A model generated the notes under the pieces. The model made no database searches and was not told the origin of the DNA. It saw only the letters and a program-made list of their open reading frames with translations. The position numbers and the translations under genes are program-made. Shown in pieces: positions 80 through 21,868 of a stretch of 37,531 nt of DNA (position 1 is the first letter of the stretch; each line of letters opens with the position of its first letter). The DNA comes from Candidatus Heimdallarchaeota archaeon (lineage in GTDB: Archaea; Asgardarchaeota; Heimdallarchaeia; Heimdallarchaeales; Kariarchaeaceae): contig JAAFKL010000319.1 in NCBI GenBank assembly GCA_021399405.1, forward strand, positions 1 through 37,531, read 5' to 3'.

Positions 80-380
80 AATAAATCACTTTAGAATACA
101 ATCAAAGGTTTGATCAATATCTACAATTAAATGAGTTTTTCACAATAATAAAACCTTCGTAACTTCATTATTAGAAAAAGGCATTTTCTATATAGTTTAA
201 ATCCTCTAAACGTGTTCCTATACTTGTTTTGTGCAAAATAATCTAACGTAACATCGATTGTCATAGAATATCGAAGGTTAATTCGAAACAAAAATCGATA
301 TTTATTGATCTGAAAAGAGCAACCTTAATACTTGGATTGGGAAAATTAATATTAAATCAAGGTATCTAGGAGGATTGGTT
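80..380. promoter_or_regulatory. Divergent intergenic region upstream of vps4
   Basis: About 300 nt of AT-rich sequence between the left-edge gene and vps4. It must hold the promoters of both. A TATA-like TTAATATTAAA lies roughly 25-35 nt before the vps4 start, and AGGAGG at 368-373 is a strong Shine-Dalgarno for the GTG at 381. I see no RNA gene or further reading frame. Confidence 0.4.
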
Positions 381-1538
381 GTGAGTAGTAATCTTTATGC
401 ACGTGCAAAACAATTAGCTGAGAAAGCTGTAAATGCAGATAATGCAGGTAAGTTCCAAGAAGCATTAAATTTATATCTACAAGCTGCAGAAATATTAGTC
501 GAGATGGGAAAAATCACTGGTAATCCTAGATTACGACAAACATATGAACAAAGAGCTAAAGAATACATTTCAAGATCTAAATCTTTGAAACCTTTAATTA
601 AACAAAAAGCGAAACTTGGATCCTCAAAATCAAGTTCCAGTTCTGGTGATGAAGATGATGATGAACTTGATGAGTCGATCGCAGGTGCGATTGTTTCAGA
701 AAAACCTGATATCTCCCTTACTGATGTTGCAGGATTGCATACAGCAAAGAGAGCCCTTAGAGAATCAATTGTACTGCCACTAATGAGACCTGACCTATTT
801 ACCGGATCACGGCAACCATGGAGGGGGATATTATTACATGGCCCTCCAGGATGTGGTAAAACAATGATTGCAAAGGCTACTGCTGGAGATATCGAGGCTA
901 CATTTTTTAATATATCAGCCGCAACTTTGGTTAGTAAATATTTGGGTGAGAGTGAAAAATTAGTAAAGAAACTTTATGAAACTGCAATAGAAAGACAGCC
1001 TTCTATCATCTTCATAGATGAGGTAGATTCATTAACTCAATCGCGTGGGGATGGTGAACATGATGCTATGCGAAGGGTGAAAACTCAATTACTTACCAGT
1101 ATGGAGGGATTATCTTCAAAGAAGGATGATAGAGTGGTTACCATAGGCGCAACAAATATTCCTTGGGAGATTGATTCTGCTTTCAGAAGACGATTCCAAA
1201 GAAGAATTTATGTCGGTTTACCAGATGAAGAGGCAAGAGAAGTTATCTTTAAGGTAAACTCGAAAGGGATCGAATTAGATGATAGTGTTGATTTTAAGCA
1301 CCTCGCTGGACTCTCAGATGGATTTTCAGGATCTGATATTGCAAATGTATGTAGAGATGCAATAATGACCCCAATCAGAGAATTGGATAGTACTGATTTG
1401 ATAAATGACACAAGTGTTGCTGCAAGAGCTGTGATTCAGAATGACTACATAGTCTCATTAAAAAATGCAAATAAATCAGTTTCAACAAGGGAATTGGTGA
1501 AATTTGATGAATGGAACGAAGAATTTGGTGCTTCGTAA
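381..1538 (+). CDS. vps4: ESCRT AAA ATPase Vps4 (MIT domain + AAA)
   Basis: Vps4 is the AAA ATPase that remodels and disassembles ESCRT-III filaments. Residues 3-75 form a three-helix MIT domain, which binds ESCRT-III tails. A Ser/acidic linker (about 80-100) follows, then a type-I AAA module with Walker A GPPGCGKT at 154-161, pore loop SKYLGESEK near 185-193, Walker B IIFIDE at 209-214, sensor GATN at 256-259 and arginine fingers RRRF near 269. The C-terminal FDEWNEEFG resembles the Vps4 terminal helix. At 385 residues the length is normal. I start at GTG 381 rather than TTG 375 because AGGAGG at 368-373 sits 7 nt before the GTG but only 1 nt before the TTG. Its stop overlaps the vps25 start. 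Both the intact MIT domain and all ATPase motifs point to a working enzyme. Confidence 0.96.
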   Translation: MSSNLYARAKQLAEKAVNADNAGKFQEALNLYLQAAEILVEMGKITGNPRLRQTYEQRAKEYISRSKSLKPLIKQKAKLGSSKSSSSSGDEDDDELDESIAGAIVSEKPDISLTDVAGLHTAKRALRESIVLPLMRPDLFTGSRQPWRGILLHGPPGCGKTMIAKATAGDIEATFFNISAATLVSKYLGESEKLVKKLYETAIERQPSIIFIDEVDSLTQSRGDGEHDAMRRVKTQLLTSMEGLSSKKDDRVVTIGATNIPWEIDSAFRRRFQRRIYVGLPDEEAREVIFKVNSKGIELDDSVDFKHLAGLSDGFSGSDIANVCRDAIMTPIRELDSTDLINDTSVAARAVIQNDYIVSLKNANKSVSTRELVKFDEWNEEFGAS

Positions 1539-2287
1539 TGTCGATCAAAGAGAGACCTCGAGAAAAAAAAGAGGACAAAAAAGAAAAATCTGAGGACTCT
1601 AAAAAGATTAATGATTGGTTAGACAATGTCGATATGGAAAAAATTGAGAATAAAACAATTGAAGCTGAACCAAAACAAGAAACAATCACGAAGCCCGAAA
1701 ACACAGTGATATCACCTAAAGTAGATGAGGAGATTGTGATTACTGAAATTGTGGAAGTGGCACCTGTTGACATTTTTCTCATTAAAATGCCACCTTGGGT
1801 CAAAAAACCATGGATGTATGTTAAACCAACACATGAACATCAATTGAGTTCATGGTTAGATTCATGGCAAGGATTAGTATTAGACTATTCAAGGTCATAC
1901 AAAATCCACATTGTTAACCTCTCCGAATTAAACACTAAATACCCGTTCACAAATCAAGAAATTGGTAAAATATTGACATATGATCAATTACAGACTATTA
2001 TCGATAAGATGGTCACAGAAGGATTAGCTAGATGGATCGATGAAACCAAAATATCAGCAAGAATTTATTATCTCACCAATAAAGATTGGGCAAGTAGGGT
2101 AATGGCTTATCTCATGGAAAGTGGTTATGCTGCTGAGGTAATGACCTTTTTCGAATTACAAGGACTTGAGCAAGAATGGAGCACGCTACCAAGAGCAGAA
2201 TTAAGGGATATTTTTGATATATTAGTTATGGATGGAAGAGCAAAATGGGTTGGAGAAGGAAAAGATACATTATCATTTATTTTATAA
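1538..2287 (+). CDS. vps25: ESCRT-II subunit Vps25-like protein
   Basis: Vps25 is the ESCRT-II arm that links to ESCRT-III. The C-terminal 165 residues match the Vps25 fold: the PPWVKKPW opening at 85-92, a first winged helix containing QLSSWLDSW and the QTIIDKMVTEGLARWID stretch, and a second winged helix ending GRAKWVGEGKDTLSFIL, recalling the HKAEI and GRGVKFF end of the eukaryotic protein. Residues 1-75 are a highly charged Lys/Glu-rich, probably disordered extension that eukaryotic Vps25 lacks. The start is placed at ATG 1538, which shares its A with the last base of the vps4 stop (TAATG), implying translational coupling; an in-frame ATG at 1511 would add 9 residues inside vps4 and is less likely. 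The gene converges on vps22 across 17 nt. Confidence 0.92.
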   Translation: MSIKERPREKKEDKKEKSEDSKKINDWLDNVDMEKIENKTIEAEPKQETITKPENTVISPKVDEEIVITEIVEVAPVDIFLIKMPPWVKKPWMYVKPTHEHQLSSWLDSWQGLVLDYSRSYKIHIVNLSELNTKYPFTNQEIGKILTYDQLQTIIDKMVTEGLARWIDETKISARIYYLTNKDWASRVMAYLMESGYAAEVMTFFELQGLEQEWSTLPRAELRDIFDILVMDGRAKWVGEGKDTLSFIL

Positions 2288-2304
2288 TTTGATTAAATTC
2301 TTTT

Positions 2305-3030
2305 TTATGATTCACCCAAGCTTGGGAACCAATATTTGGTACCTTCATGATACGTTTCATCTTTGAGTACCATACCCTGTTGAACTAATTCATTCAAAAC
2401 CCGACTAGCACGTTCTGGTTCCCACGAAGCATGTATTATCAGTTTTTCACGAGTAAGGAATCCAAATCTTGCTGCGAGATCAAATACAGATTGTTGATCT
2501 GGTGACATCTCAATAGAGACGAATTCTACAATTAAAACACCAGAAGGTAATTTACGAAGTGGTTGAATCAATTTATCACTGATCAATTTGTCTAATGATC
2601 TAGTTACATCTTTGGGAGAAACTATCTTACCTGGTCGTTTTCGATTGACTTGAATTACTAATTCTGCCAAAGAAATGAGACCTCCTTTGCTGTTTATTGT
2701 TTCTCTTCCAAGTTCAAGAATTTCATTGGCTAATTGATCATAAAATCCTGAACCGCGTAATTTTTCCATGAAGGAAGGACTTTCTTTCCATTCATAAACA
2801 CCTATTTCCTCAGGTAATCCAAGTTCATCACGCAATCTACTTACTTTTTGGTAATAATCTTGGTTTCCTTTGATTTCCTTGGAATGTTTTTTCTCAAATT
2901 TCTTGAGGCCTTTTTTTAGTGCTTCGACATTTTCAATTAGACTATCAAGTTCTTCAAGCATTATCTCTGCTTCTTTTCTTTGATAAGCACTTTTTTCGCG
3001 TAGTTTCCTCTCGATTTCTCTTAAACCCAT
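2305..3030 (-). CDS. vps22: ESCRT-II subunit Vps22/EAP30 (SNF8)-like protein
   Basis: This is the core subunit of ESCRT-II. Residues 1-70 form a long charged helical hairpin or coiled coil, as at the N-terminus of SNF8/EAP30. The body contains FYDQLANEILELGRETI and GGLISLAELV, matching the SNF8 pattern of FYxELGxQIIE and GGLITLEEL, then two winged helices; the last has the SWEPERASRVLNELVQQGM block, close to the SNF8 KWETERARQVLEHLLKEG, and ends YWFPSL like the SNF8 YWLPAL. At 241 residues it is near the usual length. The ATG at 3030 follows the vps28 stop by 1 nt, with an AAGGGAG ribosome-binding site inside vps28. A Vps36 partner is not seen, so one EAP30 protein may serve both roles. Confidence 0.92.
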   Translation of the reverse strand: MGLREIERKLREKSAYQRKEAEIMLEELDSLIENVEALKKGLKKFEKKHSKEIKGNQDYYQKVSRLRDELGLPEEIGVYEWKESPSFMEKLRGSGFYDQLANEILELGRETINSKGGLISLAELVIQVNRKRPGKIVSPKDVTRSLDKLISDKLIQPLRKLPSGVLIVEFVSIEMSPDQQSVFDLAARFGFLTREKLIIHASWEPERASRVLNELVQQGMVLKDETYHEGTKYWFPSLGES

Positions 3031-3031
3031 A

Positions 3032-3649
3032 TTACAACTCCCTTAGTTGTCTTCGAAATTCATTCAACCATCTAACTGCATCAAATTCTAGTTTTTCACA
3101 ATGTTCGTCGCCAAGTACTTGGCTTGGTTTCTCATCACTTAGAGTTTTGACCCATCCATTAATTTCAATTATACTTCTAGAACTCTCATCAATTTTAGGA
3201 AATTTGCTTAATATTGCATTCATATCATCCAGTAATGGTATAATGTATTCCACTTTAGCAACTGTTCGCAGCTTAAGTAGATCAATTAGTTCAATTGCAC
3301 TTGCAACATAATCAGCCGATCTAGCTGGCAATTCTTTCAATTGTTTATATTCTAGTGACACAGCATCTTCATCCAAACCTTCGGCTAAATCCAGGCGTCT
3401 CATCCCTTCAGGATATTTTTCATGTAAATTCTCGCGGGTTATAAATTCCTGAATATTGAATCCAATTTTTTCTAGTTGGATACGAGCTTTAAATACATCA
3501 GATATACATGCCTTGAGTTGTCTTCTCAGCAATGTCTCTTCAACCAACCCTTTATCAAAATATTTTGATAATTTATCCATGGTTGCGATTGCCGCAAACA
3601 GGTCAGCTTCAATTTGTAATGGGTCTTTGGGTCTTCTCGATGTAATCAT
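3032..3649 (-). CDS. vps28: ESCRT-I subunit Vps28-like protein
   Basis: Vps28 joins ESCRT-I to ESCRT-II. The N-terminal half (DPLQIEADLFAAIATMDKL, then a run of helices to about residue 95) corresponds to the Vps28 N-terminal domain that packs on the Vps23 steadiness box. Residues about 115-205 look like the C-terminal four-helix bundle that contacts ESCRT-II, with the INGWVKTLSDEKPSQVL segment resembling the eukaryotic SQWLQTLSGM and a final WLNEFRRQL helix like the eukaryotic AYNAFNRFL. I choose ATG 3649 because AGGTGA at 3655-3660 lies 5 nt before it; the GTG at 3658 is part of that ribosome-binding site. The start lies 41 nt inside vps23, so the two are translated together. At 205 residues it is close to eukaryotic Vps28. 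Confidence 0.88.
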   Translation of the reverse strand: MITSRRPKDPLQIEADLFAAIATMDKLSKYFDKGLVEETLLRRQLKACISDVFKARIQLEKIGFNIQEFITRENLHEKYPEGMRRLDLAEGLDEDAVSLEYKQLKELPARSADYVASAIELIDLLKLRTVAKVEYIIPLLDDMNAILSKFPKIDESSRSIIEINGWVKTLSDEKPSQVLGDEHCEKLEFDAVRWLNEFRRQLREL

Positions 3650-4316
3650 TTCGTTCACCTACTAATTTCTTTAATTCGGTATTTTGGATATACCATTCTC
3701 TCCTGTACTTACGGTAAAGTCTGAAGAAATCTGTTTGATCAATATCAGCTTCCTCAAATTTTACTTCTAGTAATTCTACCAAATCATTGAGAGCCAAAAT
3801 TTGACATTCTAGATCAAGTTTATGTGAAATTTGCATTGAACCTACAGCGATAGAGTCAATTCCTGCACTTTTCAATTTAGCAGCTTTTAACTCATTGATC
3901 TTTCTATTATATTCCGCAATTTCATTTTGTATTTCAATAATCTCTTGTTCAGATCTGGAAGGTGTTGATTGTGGTGTTGAAGCAATAGATATTGATTTAC
4001 TTGATTTAACAAATAATCTTCTCGTAGAAGTAATTATATCTTTCATCCTGTAATTTGGTTCCCACATATCCAGAAGTTGCATATCCAGGGATCGATCTGA
4101 ATTAATATTCGGATGACTAATATTGGTAATAACTTTTACTTCTGGTTTAATAAATGGGTAGTATTCCGGGACAATAATACTGATAATGATATCCTCACCA
4201 TCTGGTGCCCTACCTACCTTACCAGTAAATTGATTCCCATTGACACTGAATGTGGGCTCATTACGCACTATCCAGTCAAGTTCTTGAGCAATTATCAAAT
4301 CGGGATTGTCAGACAT
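3609..4316 (-). CDS. vps23: ESCRT-I Vps23/Tsg101-like UEV protein with steadiness box
   Basis: The protein has the full Tsg101 layout in 235 residues: a UEV/E2 fold (about 1-105), a Ser/Pro linker, a coiled coil (about 122-150) and a C-terminal steadiness-box-like helical pair (about 160-228). The E2 fold is clear from VPEYYPFIKPEVKV, HPN at 68-70 and MWEPNY near 84. Where an active E2 has its cysteine a few residues after HPNI, this protein has Ser76 in RSLDM, so it cannot form a ubiquitin thioester and is expected to act as a ubiquitin reader, like Tsg101. I start at ATG 4316 with AAGGA 4-5 nt upstream; GTG 4331 is a weaker alternative. It is the first gene of the vps23-vps28-vps22 unit. 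Confidence 0.9.
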   Translation of the reverse strand: MSDNPDLIIAQELDWIVRNEPTFSVNGNQFTGKVGRAPDGEDIIISIIVPEYYPFIKPEVKVITNISHPNINSDRSLDMQLLDMWEPNYRMKDIITSTRRLFVKSSKSISIASTPQSTPSRSEQEIIEIQNEIAEYNRKINELKAAKLKSAGIDSIAVGSMQISHKLDLECQILALNDLVELLEVKFEEADIDQTDFFRLYRKYRREWYIQNTELKKLVGERNDYIEKTQRPITN

Positions 4317-4557
4317 CTTTCCTTTGTTCACCTATCCAATGTTAATGTATTTGTATTCCTAAAATATAAAGGTTTAACAAATAATCCTATAATATTCGCG
4401 GAAATTATTCATTTTCGTAAATATATTGAACGATTTTACCTTCAATTATTTGATTTAATCATTATAAAAATCTCATTTATCATAAAAATCTGCTGAAACA
4501 TTGTTGTTAACAAATAATAAGATTTGACTAGATTGTTAAGATCGCTATCGATAAGGA

Positions 4558-4596: not shown

Positions 4597-4692
4597 GCGT
4601 CCGTGGCCCAGTCCGGTTAAGGCATCCGACTGTTAAAACCATTTTTGGTTTCAGATATCGGGAGATCGCAGGTTCGAATCCTGCCGGACGCG
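4597..4692 (+). tRNA. trnN: tRNA-Asn (anticodon GTT) with one intron
   Basis: All four arms fold. The acceptor stem is GCGTCCG (4597-4603) with CGGACGC (4685-4691) and discriminator G4692. The D arm begins GCCCAG at 4606. The anticodon stem is TCCGA (4625-4629) with TCGGG (4658-4662). The T arm is GCAGG TTCGAAT CCTGC (4668-4684). The anticodon loop reads C-T-GTT-A and, after removing the intron at 4636-4656, closes with A4657 as a normal 7-nt loop, giving anticodon GTT at 4632-4634. CCA is not encoded. A nine-T run follows directly. Confidence 0.93.
4636..4656 (+). other. 21-nt tRNA-Asn intron at position 37/38 (BHB)
   Basis: This is the canonical archaeal intron site. AACC (4637-4640) pairs with GGTT (4647-4650) as the inner helix. 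CTG (4630-4632) pairs with CAG (4652-4654) as the central helix. Three-nt bulges remain at 4634-4636 and 4655-4657, each cut after its second base. That is a bulge-helix-bulge with one mismatch in the central helix. Confidence 0.85.
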
Positions 4693-18774: not shown

Positions 18775-19473
18775 TTGAAGAATGAAAGAAGTTTTCCTTA
18801 TTTGTTGAGTATCACATCAACTAGTCATATTGTGAAATTTCAAGCAATGCCTATGCAGGAGTTGCATGAAAAAATCACTCCAGAACTAGAAACTGAGGGA
18901 TACAAAACTTCACTCAACAATTTAACCGATGGTACACTTAGTCTAAAGATTATTAATAAAACGACAACAGTTCTAACTATAGACAGACATAGACATAGAC
19001 CATTTGAACTTGAAGTACTTGTTGATCACACTTTAAAGAAAAAACAGGATTTAGTATCTCGTAGAAAGCGAAGTAGTCAAAGAGATGGATCTTTAATAAA
19101 TTATAGATATCTGTGGATTGCTATTATATTCTTTGCAACATTATTATCAATGTTTTATTTCTTCATTGGCCTATTTCTAGATGCTCTTGATACTATTACT
19201 CCAGGTTGGTCATCCACGCAACAAGCCCTAGGAATTATTATTGTTATCCTTGTGATTGCATTGTTCTGGATACTTGTTGTTCCAATTTTTACAAAACACA
19301 AAAAAGAATCAATGAAGAAATATGATATAATAGTCCTTGAAATCGTATGCGGGATAATTAAAAGCCTTAGAGTTGAGATAGATGAAACTGCAGTTCTGAG
19401 ATGCTGGTCTTGTTTTGAAGAAATTAATCATTCTGACAAGATATGCAGGAATTGCGGGGAAGAACAGAGTTAG
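18775..19473 (+). CDS. Zinc-ribbon membrane protein, paralogue 1
   Basis: Unrecognised family, 232 residues from the first possible codon. The N-terminal 20-100 is a small soluble domain beginning FQAMPMQEL and containing a His/Arg patch DRHRHRPFELEVLVDH. Two membrane helices follow (about 103-131 and 143-168), then a soluble stretch and a C-terminal CxxC...CxxC zinc ribbon with Cys at 210, 213, 224 and 227. The next gene encodes a paralogue with the same order of parts. The TTG at 18775 has no visible ribosome-binding site; TTG 18802 or 18805 would line up better with the paralogue's start. The gene is divergent from hflX. The zinc ribbon is probably cytoplasmic, but the role is unknown. Confidence 0.72.
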   Translation: MKNERSFPYLLSITSTSHIVKFQAMPMQELHEKITPELETEGYKTSLNNLTDGTLSLKIINKTTTVLTIDRHRHRPFELEVLVDHTLKKKQDLVSRRKRSSQRDGSLINYRYLWIAIIFFATLLSMFYFFIGLFLDALDTITPGWSSTQQALGIIIVILVIALFWILVVPIFTKHKKESMKKYDIIVLEIVCGIIKSLRVEIDETAVLRCWSCFEEINHSDKICRNCGEEQS

Positions 19474-19536: not shown

Positions 19537-20229
19537 TTGAGTTTAGTGAGTGATTCGGCTGCAAAATATAAATTAAAATTACAAGCAATGCCCATGCAGG
19601 AATTACGGGGTCTCCTTGAGAAAGATCTAGCGAGTCAGGGTTATGAAAGTTATTTAACTAATATGACTGAAACCGATCTTGATCTAAAAGTCATCAAACA
19701 ATCACAAAAACCGACTCTTATTTCACTTGCCCGAAAAAGACACAAACCATTGGAGATTGAATTAATGGTCAATCATGAATTATTGGATAGCCATGATTTG
19801 GTTACCAAACAGGCAAAATCCAGAAATTCAGGAAATCGTCAGAGTTCGTTCATGATGTATAGATTCCTATTTCTCGGATTATTCTTGGCCTCCATACTAA
19901 TATCCATATTTGTTTTATTCGTAGATATAATTATTTCAATAATTGAAGCTGCAACCCCAGGTTGGTCTTCTTATCAACGTTCAACCGGAATTTTGGTGGT
20001 ATCTGCTTTGATTCTCTTGTGGTATATCTATATAAGACCCCGAGTGAAGGCGAGCGATACTCACAGACGGAATAAATCTGATTCTCATTTACTTGAATAT
20101 ATTAAAACTTTTATTGAGAACCTAGCTTACCAAGCCCCTGCCAATGCAATAGTTCGATGTTGGAATTGTTTTGAAAAGATTGATCAAGCCGAAAGTTTTT
20201 GTTCAAACTGTGGAAAACAACAAGATTGA
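19537..20229 (+). CDS. Zinc-ribbon membrane protein, paralogue 2
   Basis: Same family as the preceding gene, from which it presumably arose by tandem duplication. Shared features are LQAMPMQEL near residue 16, a basic KRHKPLEIELMVNH segment, two membrane helices (about 106-135 and 147-168), ATPGWSS between them (the partner has ITPGWSS), and a C-terminal zinc ribbon with Cys at 208, 211, 222 and 225. The two proteins are clearly diverged over the rest of their length. The start is TTG 19537, with GGAG at 19524-19527 and a 9-nt spacer; GTG 19546 is possible. It sits 63 nt after paralogue 1 in the same direction, so they may be co-transcribed. No function can be assigned. Confidence 0.78.
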   Translation: MSLVSDSAAKYKLKLQAMPMQELRGLLEKDLASQGYESYLTNMTETDLDLKVIKQSQKPTLISLARKRHKPLEIELMVNHELLDSHDLVTKQAKSRNSGNRQSSFMMYRFLFLGLFLASILISIFVLFVDIIISIIEAATPGWSSYQRSTGILVVSALILLWYIYIRPRVKASDTHRRNKSDSHLLEYIKTFIENLAYQAPANAIVRCWNCFEKIDQAESFCSNCGKQQD

Positions 20230-21514: not shown

Positions 21515-21603
21515 GAATTTTAAGAATGTATTAAAGTAAAAGAGATATGTCTAAAGACTATCTTGAAGACACAAGGGCTCGTGGTCTAGCTCGGTTATGA
21601 CGC

Positions 21604-21626
21604 AGAAATTCAGTTGTGTGCTGAAT
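21604..21626 (+). other. tRNA-Met insert 1 in the 5' anticodon stem
   Basis: About 23 nt inserted between positions 27 and 28 (or 26 and 27, using a U-G pair). It includes most of a perfect hairpin, GAAATTCAG (21605-21613) with CTGAATTTC (21621-21629), loop TTGTGTG. This is a rare intron site. A standard BHB is not obvious here. Confidence 0.7.
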
Positions 21627-21636
21627 TTCGTTCATA

Positions 21637-21697
21637 CTGTATCAGTTGTGTACTGATACAGGTCAAATTCGTTTACAAAGCTGTGAACGCTTAAAAA
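21637..21697 (+). other. tRNA-Met insert 2 at position 37/38
   Basis: About 61 nt at the canonical intron site. It holds two hairpins: CTGTATCAGT (21637-21646) with ACTGATACAG (21652-21661), and CGTTTACA (21670-21677) with TGTGAACG (21682-21689, one wobble). TTCA (21631-21634) can pair three of four bases with TAAA (21692-21695) as central helix. It may be one composite intron or two fused ones. Confidence 0.75.
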
Positions 21698-21718
21698 CCG
21701 AAGAGGTCGGGAGTTCAA

Positions 21719-21747
21719 TTGGTTCAATTGTGATTGGATCTGGATTA
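21719..21747 (+). other. tRNA-Met insert 3 in the T-loop
   Basis: About 29 nt between positions 58 and 59 of the T-loop. Removing it restores TTCAAAT between GGGAG and CTCCC. The exon/intron edge contains a tandem TTCAATTG repeat (21714-21721 and 21723-21730), so the cut could slide. Confidence 0.72.
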
Positions 21748-21868
21748 ATCTCCCCGAGCCCATTTATTTTAGCAAATACAATTGATTTTCTTAAATTTTG
21801 AAATTAATTCAATTAAGGTAGCCTTTGCAACAAATGAATATATATCTGTACAAGCAATATTTTAAACG

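Follow-up and report, generated by a model that had tools for sequence, protein, structure and literature searches.

A probable three-intron tRNA-Val(UAC) gene with a likely tandemly duplicated intron in a Heimdallarchaeota-like Asgard archaeon

Gene layout and genomic surroundings

The window (the whole 37,531-nt stretch of DNA analyzed, with a G+C content of ~34%) carried a tRNA gene at 21575–21762 on the forward strand, which spanned 188 nt and gave a closed 75-nt cloverleaf upon removal of three inserts. The gene ends, the 75-nt mature form, and the presence of three inserts, of which one interrupts the anticodon stem and another the T-loop, had been proposed in a first-pass annotation of the sequence and were all borne out. 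Neither ARAGORN nor Rfam reported a tRNA at 21575–21762; when the Rfam threshold was relaxed for this region, four matches appeared, but no tRNA was among them and all stayed well short of their gathering scores. All stems of the mature form had also been described as perfect, and this held for the acceptor (7/7 pairs), anticodon (5/5), and T (5/5) stems but not for the D stem, which had three pairs plus a T13.T22 mismatch.

The arrangement favored here (see below) was composed of four exons and three introns, all on the forward strand. Exon 1 (21575–21603) contained the acceptor 5′ strand (7/7 pairs with 21755–21761), D-arm, position 26, and C27, and it matched the Val-UAC genes of relatives. 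Intron 1 (21604–21667; 64 nt; position 27/28) was followed by the short exon 2 (21668–21677; positions 28–37, TTCG TTTACA), with TAC (Val) as the anticodon, and then by intron 2 (21678–21697; 20 nt) at the canonical position 37/38. Exon 3 (21698–21718) held C38, the anticodon stem 3′ strand, variable loop, T stem 5′ strand, and TTCAA; intron 3 (21719–21747; 29 nt) lay at T-loop position 58/59; and exon 4 (21748–21762) supplied the T-loop end, the 3′ strands of the T and acceptor stems, and discriminator A. Joined together, these exons gave a full cloverleaf of an isotype that is known.

The window also contained an ESCRT gene set at 375–4331 (Vps4-like AAA with MIT, ESCRT-II, EAP30/Vps36, and Vps28) plus an E2 ubiquitin-conjugating-like gene, as expected for an Asgard archaeon; all five of these genes had matches in L004, with the gene order kept. 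L004 belonged to G002, a MAG named Candidatus Heimdallarchaeota, and the comparison set consisted of 35 genomes from the same order as G002; judged from this order, all 35 would belong to Heimdallarchaeota. The prolyl-tRNA synthetase (ProRS) of the window was 74% identical to that of a Candidatus Heimdallarchaeota MAG (L001). Among the 35 genomes, the closest by ProRS was G032 (80%, although measured on a fragment of 200 residues), followed by G033, G002, G031, and G030 (70–72%). The proposal of a thrice-interrupted tRNA gene in a Heimdallarchaeota-like Asgard archaeon was supported.

The EamA gene flanking the tRNA gene had one clear relative, in G033 (54%), and its other matches, found in 17 of the 35 genomes, were weak. 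ARAGORN reported no tRNA in the 3.9-kb EamA locus of G033, where an intron-rich tRNA could escape it. Orthology of the tRNA locus with G032 received no support: the tRNA-bearing contig of G032 had no match at E 1e-8 to the window ORFs (30 of the 32 ORFs, with ProRS and the Vps4-like gene excluded). Two neighboring proteins encoded at 18775–19473 and 19537–20229 (both on the forward strand) had no Pfam match above the cut-off; both of them matched the same end of L001, and they may be paralogues.

Valine versus methionine identity

The first-pass annotation had read the gene as an elongator tRNA-Met with a CAT anticodon and with inserts at 21604–21626, 21637–21697, and 21719–21747. When this spliced Met form was searched in three relatives, its best matches were valine tRNAs. 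The Val-UAC anticodon loop in G002 and G001 was CTTACAC, and the window had a second TTCG-TTTACA at 21668–21677; taking this segment as exon 2 gave the loop TTTACAC, which was identical to that of the Val-UAC gene in G004 (L061). The resulting spliced Val form was 83% identical over positions 1–75 (E 2.4e-15) to the intron-free Val-UAC gene of G002 and 85% identical over positions 7–68 to that of G001, and the bit scores of the Val form exceeded those of the Met form for both genes (75.2 vs. 66.2 for G002 and 69.8 vs. 60.8 for G001). The CAT reading came from TTCG TTCATAC at 21627–21637 on the forward strand, which lies within intron 1 as delimited here.

An intron-allowing alignment was applied to 21540–21800 with 25 tRNA references, permitting up to three introns at any place. 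The references comprised eight Val tRNAs and one CAT tRNA selected by name, and 16 further covariance-model matches from G002, the last being picked, out of 36 above the gathering score, by a length of 71–76 nt (suggesting that they were intron-free). Val-UAC ranked first among the 25: the five Val-UAC references (those of G035 and G032 spliced by hand for this analysis, the other three being natural intron-free genes) scored 55, 53, 49, 45, and 45, and each of them placed the introns at 21604–21667, at 21677–21696, and within 2 nt of 21719–21747. The limits of intron 1 were thus identical in 5/5 cases, and of the inserts proposed earlier only 21719–21747 could be kept, 21604–21667 and 21678–21697 (see below) being the better limits for the other two. 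The remaining Val references scored 45 (GAC, G031), 40 (GAC, G002), and 35 (CAC, G001); the GAC reference of G031 and the CAC reference of G001 set the first cut at 21603–21625, near that of the Met reading, and the GAC reference of G002 set it at the Val-form place. L125, a Val-type tRNA of G002 with a CAC loop (Val by anticodon), scored only 29. The best other reference reached 32, and the two CAT tRNAs of G002 reached 30 and 26.

The gene region stood above chance as a tRNA gene with inserts. With 200 shuffles run per reference, the maxima for three references were 24, 23, and 26, and a scan of 746 window stretches on both strands gave 43 at the tRNA place and 23 at the best non-overlapping stretch. 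Allowing one, two, and three introns in turn raised the score by 21, 15, and 8 with the G002 Val reference and by 19, 16, and 6 with that of G032, and a fourth intron added 4 points for both.

The methionine reading drew on the facts that its stems paired equally well, that ARAGORN called the spliced letters tRNA-Met(cat), and that its canonical insert retained three of four central pairs of the splice motif, no worse than the Val-GAC intron of G032. In Escherichia coli, moreover, a Val tRNA body that bears a CAU anticodon can become a target of MetRS, and charging with methionine would thus be compatible with a Val body as such. Against the methionine reading, the body of the gene was unlike all seven CAT tRNAs tested (five from G032 and G033 and two from G002, taken irrespective of elongator status), the best score of which was 30 with three introns, a value reached in both of these groups, compared with 45–55 for Val-UAC. 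With the anticodon loop masked, two Val-UAC references scored 37 and 43, and the five CAT tRNAs from G032 and G033 scored 11–22. Two inserts of the Met form lacked a complete splice motif: insert 1 had only two of four central pairs, and insert 2 had one mismatch. An elongator tRNA-Met was accordingly judged very improbable, and TAC was the best reading of the anticodon. Both loops are present in the DNA and both cuts give closed cloverleaves, from which one could picture alternative splicing of a single gene into Val-UAC and Met-CAU tRNAs; given the same defects of the Met cut at inserts 1 and 2, dual splicing was rejected on the splice motifs as barely credible. The sequence comparisons instead argued that the gene very probably encodes tRNA-Val(UAC), interrupted by three archaeal bulge-helix-bulge (BHB) introns at 27/28, 37/38, and 58/59, in a Heimdallarchaeota-like host. 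The correction from Met to Val illustrates how readers of raw sequence can be misled by a spurious anticodon that arises within a duplicated intron (see below).

Splice motifs and the two units of intron 1

The splice motifs were examined in a register with a 3-nt bulge on either side of a 4-bp central helix, each bulge being cut behind its second base. With the Val cut, the central helices of introns 1, 2, and 3 showed the pairing patterns WWWW, WWWW, and gWgW: (i) TGAC/GTCA in intron 1, with 4/4 Watson-Crick pairs between 2^1 bulges; (ii) TTTA/TAAA in intron 2, also with 4/4 Watson-Crick pairs; and (iii) GTTC/GGAT in intron 3, with 4/4 pairs including two G-U. The Met cut gave W.W. and WW.W for inserts 1 and 2, and the third insert was common to both cuts. 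Introns 2 and 3 each had a one-base ambiguity, which this register settled by hand at 37/38 and 58/59. Both flanking helices were present for intron 2 only (an outer helix of four pairs and an inner AGC/GCT helix of three pairs); intron 1 had a weak outer helix and a three-way junction instead of an inner helix, and intron 3 had a mismatched inner helix and an outer helix whose four pairs required a shift of the T-stem register. When the introns were shuffled, the chance of obtaining the central helix with G-U counted was 0.019, 0.060, and 0.034 for introns 1, 2, and 3, and that of an all-Watson-Crick center was 0.003 and 0.017 for introns 1 and 2.

The minimum-energy fold showed none of the three motif centers, whether in the full precursor or with any single intron or any pair of introns taken out; the fold of the whole precursor had −71.5 kcal/mol vs. 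−47.1 kcal/mol with all three motifs, the latter being ~24 kcal/mol worse. The same fold test on relatives with all introns in place displayed the motif for only one of nine introns, so that the test says little in either direction. All counts leave out the G002 CAT gene, the canonical intron of which lies in a stretch with two N. Two hairpins had earlier been assigned to one long canonical-site insert; the first (21637–21661) belonged to intron 1, and the second, formed by CGTTTACA with TGTGAACG, spanned exon 2 and intron 2.

Intron 1 was made up of two 32-nt units with a common layout, namely an A, a 9-bp hairpin with the 7-nt loop TTGTGTR, and a 6-nt tail: unit A at 21604–21635 (loop TTGTGTG and tail GTTCAT) and unit B at 21636–21667 (loop TTGTGTA and tail GTCAAA), both on the forward strand. 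The two units were identical at 18 of 32 positions in register, their local similarity was reached by 0 of 5000 shuffles, and their outer five stem pairs differed between the units yet remained paired. The false CAT sat across the junction of units A and B. The hairpin core CAGTTGTGTnCTG occurred only twice in the window and was absent from the loci compared, and a dispersed repeat was on this ground rejected as the source of the hairpin. From the likeness of its halves, intron 1 likely arose by tandem duplication of one 32-nt intron.

The suggestion that the long insert could itself be two introns thus had some basis, but for intron 1 rather than for the canonical-site insert to which it had been applied. 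Intron 1 might even be a twin intron, with two duplicated 32-nt BHB introns standing in tandem at one site and spliced successively: unit A would be removed first on a weak motif, and its loss would build the complete motif of unit B. With unit A left out, the central helix of unit B appeared with 4/4 pairs in the minimum-energy fold (P 0.45–0.56, a range that held also when unit A and intron 3 were left out together), compared with P 0.06–0.08 when unit A was present. With unit A and introns 2 and 3 all left out, the unit B center had P ~0.16 and was absent from the fold, and the own center of unit A had, by hand, three of four pairs including one G-U and an ensemble probability near 0. Such a twin intron was considered rather unlikely; if true, it would mean that archaeal tRNA introns can be spliced step by step at one and the same site, and it would offer one way in which such introns multiply.

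Intron-bearing tRNAs in relatives and other lineages

Val-UAC genes were read in 15 of the 35 genomes (L039, L040, L049, L051, L052, L053, L055, L056, L057, L058, L061, L062, L066, L067, and L078). Eleven of them were intron-free, and four harbored non-canonical introns: (i) an intron at 21/22 in G032 (L078; 75-nt product), the four central pairs of which appeared in the fold; (ii) introns at 37/38 and 59/60 in G035 (L053), with four central pairs each; and (iii) introns at 25/26 and 37/38 in G017 (L066) and G019 (L067), likewise with four central pairs each. The window gene shared with these four genes the isodecoder, the order of G002, and non-canonical introns fitting the same cleavage register, including one in the T-loop in G035; it differed in having three introns, while they had one or two each and used other non-canonical positions. 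The 25/26 introns of G017 and G019 were nearly identical, and their 37/38 introns had diverged. The 37/38 intron of the G030 Val-GAC gene had four central pairs, and the G032 Val-GAC intron had one mismatch. In G032, 22 of 35 Rfam tRNA matches above the gathering score were at least 91 nt long, which points to introns. With the intron sites of one isodecoder varying among four relatives, this order suits the study of recent intron gain and loss, which could here be followed in lineages close to eukaryotes.

In G002, G033, and G032 (L039, L183, and L175), the Val-UAC gene lay close to Glu-type (TTC) and CAT tRNA genes, and this cluster adjoined ProRS in G002 and G033. The window Val-UAC gene was located outside such a cluster, and ARAGORN and Rfam, both of which also miss the gene at 21575–21762, found no tRNA beside the window ProRS. 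As the window copy lies elsewhere, another Val-UAC copy could exist, and the gene would then be open to interpretation as a decaying pseudogene with an intact copy at another place; since its acceptor, anticodon, and T stems are fully paired and its 75-nt length and splice registers are intact, decay was considered improbable, and a functional tRNA-Val(UAC) gene remained the preferred reading.

The splicing-endonuclease family PF01974 was present in 35/35 genomes of the order, with at least two matches in 29 of them, and two kinds were distinguished: kind 1 kept Tyr, His, and Lys, which we take to be the catalytic triad of the splicing endonuclease, in 5/5 aligned copies, while kind 2 kept Tyr and Lys and lacked His at the aligned position in 5/5 aligned copies. 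The closest PDB chains to kind 1 (G032 copy) were 3p1z_B, 3ajv_B, 2zyz_B, and 2cv8_A, presumably crenarchaeal catalytic-type subunits, and kind 2 (G035 copy) also matched PDB splicing endonucleases. Among ten catalytic-type loci, L106 yielded an unrelated reading frame and was left out. Both kinds were present in G001 and G033, and G032 showed kind 1 only and G035 kind 2 only, these being incomplete MAGs; the two kinds presumably form one enzyme. A search of six genomes found RtcB in 6/6, the G033 copy being just a fragment where a contig ends. Since these genes were seen in relatives, the window organism itself would be expected to have both the endonuclease and RtcB. In other archaea, two-subunit endonucleases are described as accompanying non-canonical and multiple tRNA introns (PMC4090602) and split tRNAs (PMC3218864), and the catalytic and His-less genes of the relatives fit the former link as reported in PMC4090602. 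The gene would be transcribed with its three BHB introns in place, each of which would be cut inside the two 3-nt bulges flanking the 4-bp helix by an endonuclease that combines a catalytic with a structural subunit; RtcB would then join the exons into a 75-nt tRNA to be charged with valine.

Multi-intron tRNAs are already known, and the window gene adds a three-intron example from a Heimdallarchaeota-like genome. They have been described in Thermoproteales (PMC4390854), with three-intron tRNAs in Pyrobaculum (PMC4390854; PMC4090602), and the first-pass view that they are known mainly from Thermoproteales and are unusual in Asgard archaea is out of date: in Atabeyarchaeia and Freyarchaeia, PMC11291895 describes more than one intron in over half of the tRNA genes. 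These share with the window gene the presence of several, often non-canonical introns in Asgard tRNAs (PMC11291895), but they come from other Asgard lineages, compared here at the level of the lineage. Among the open-licence papers listed, none was on such multi-intron tRNA genes in Heimdallarchaeia.

Two three-intron genes offered parallels. Pyrobaculum islandicum tRNA-Pro(UGG), as described in PMC4090602, has introns at 25/26, 37/38, and 56/57 and thus resembles the window gene in occupying the D/anticodon junction, the anticodon loop, and the T-loop; P. islandicum belongs to Crenarchaeota, a group with α2β2 endonuclease (PMC4090602), and the window gene differed from it in isotype, lineage, the positions 27/28 and 58/59, and the tandem makeup that intron 1 likely has. 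The tRNA-Ile(UAU) of the red alga Cyanidioschyzon merolae has introns at 12/13, 37/38, and 53/54, again three introns in the D-, anticodon, and T-arms with hBHBh′ motifs, but in a eukaryote, where the order of intron removal has been studied (PMC9602550).

A second tRNA gene of the window, at 4597–4692 on the forward strand, was called Phe(aaa) by ARAGORN, but manual reading favored GTT (Asn) as its anticodon; it carried a 21-nt intron at 37/38, the center of which had, by hand, three of four pairs.
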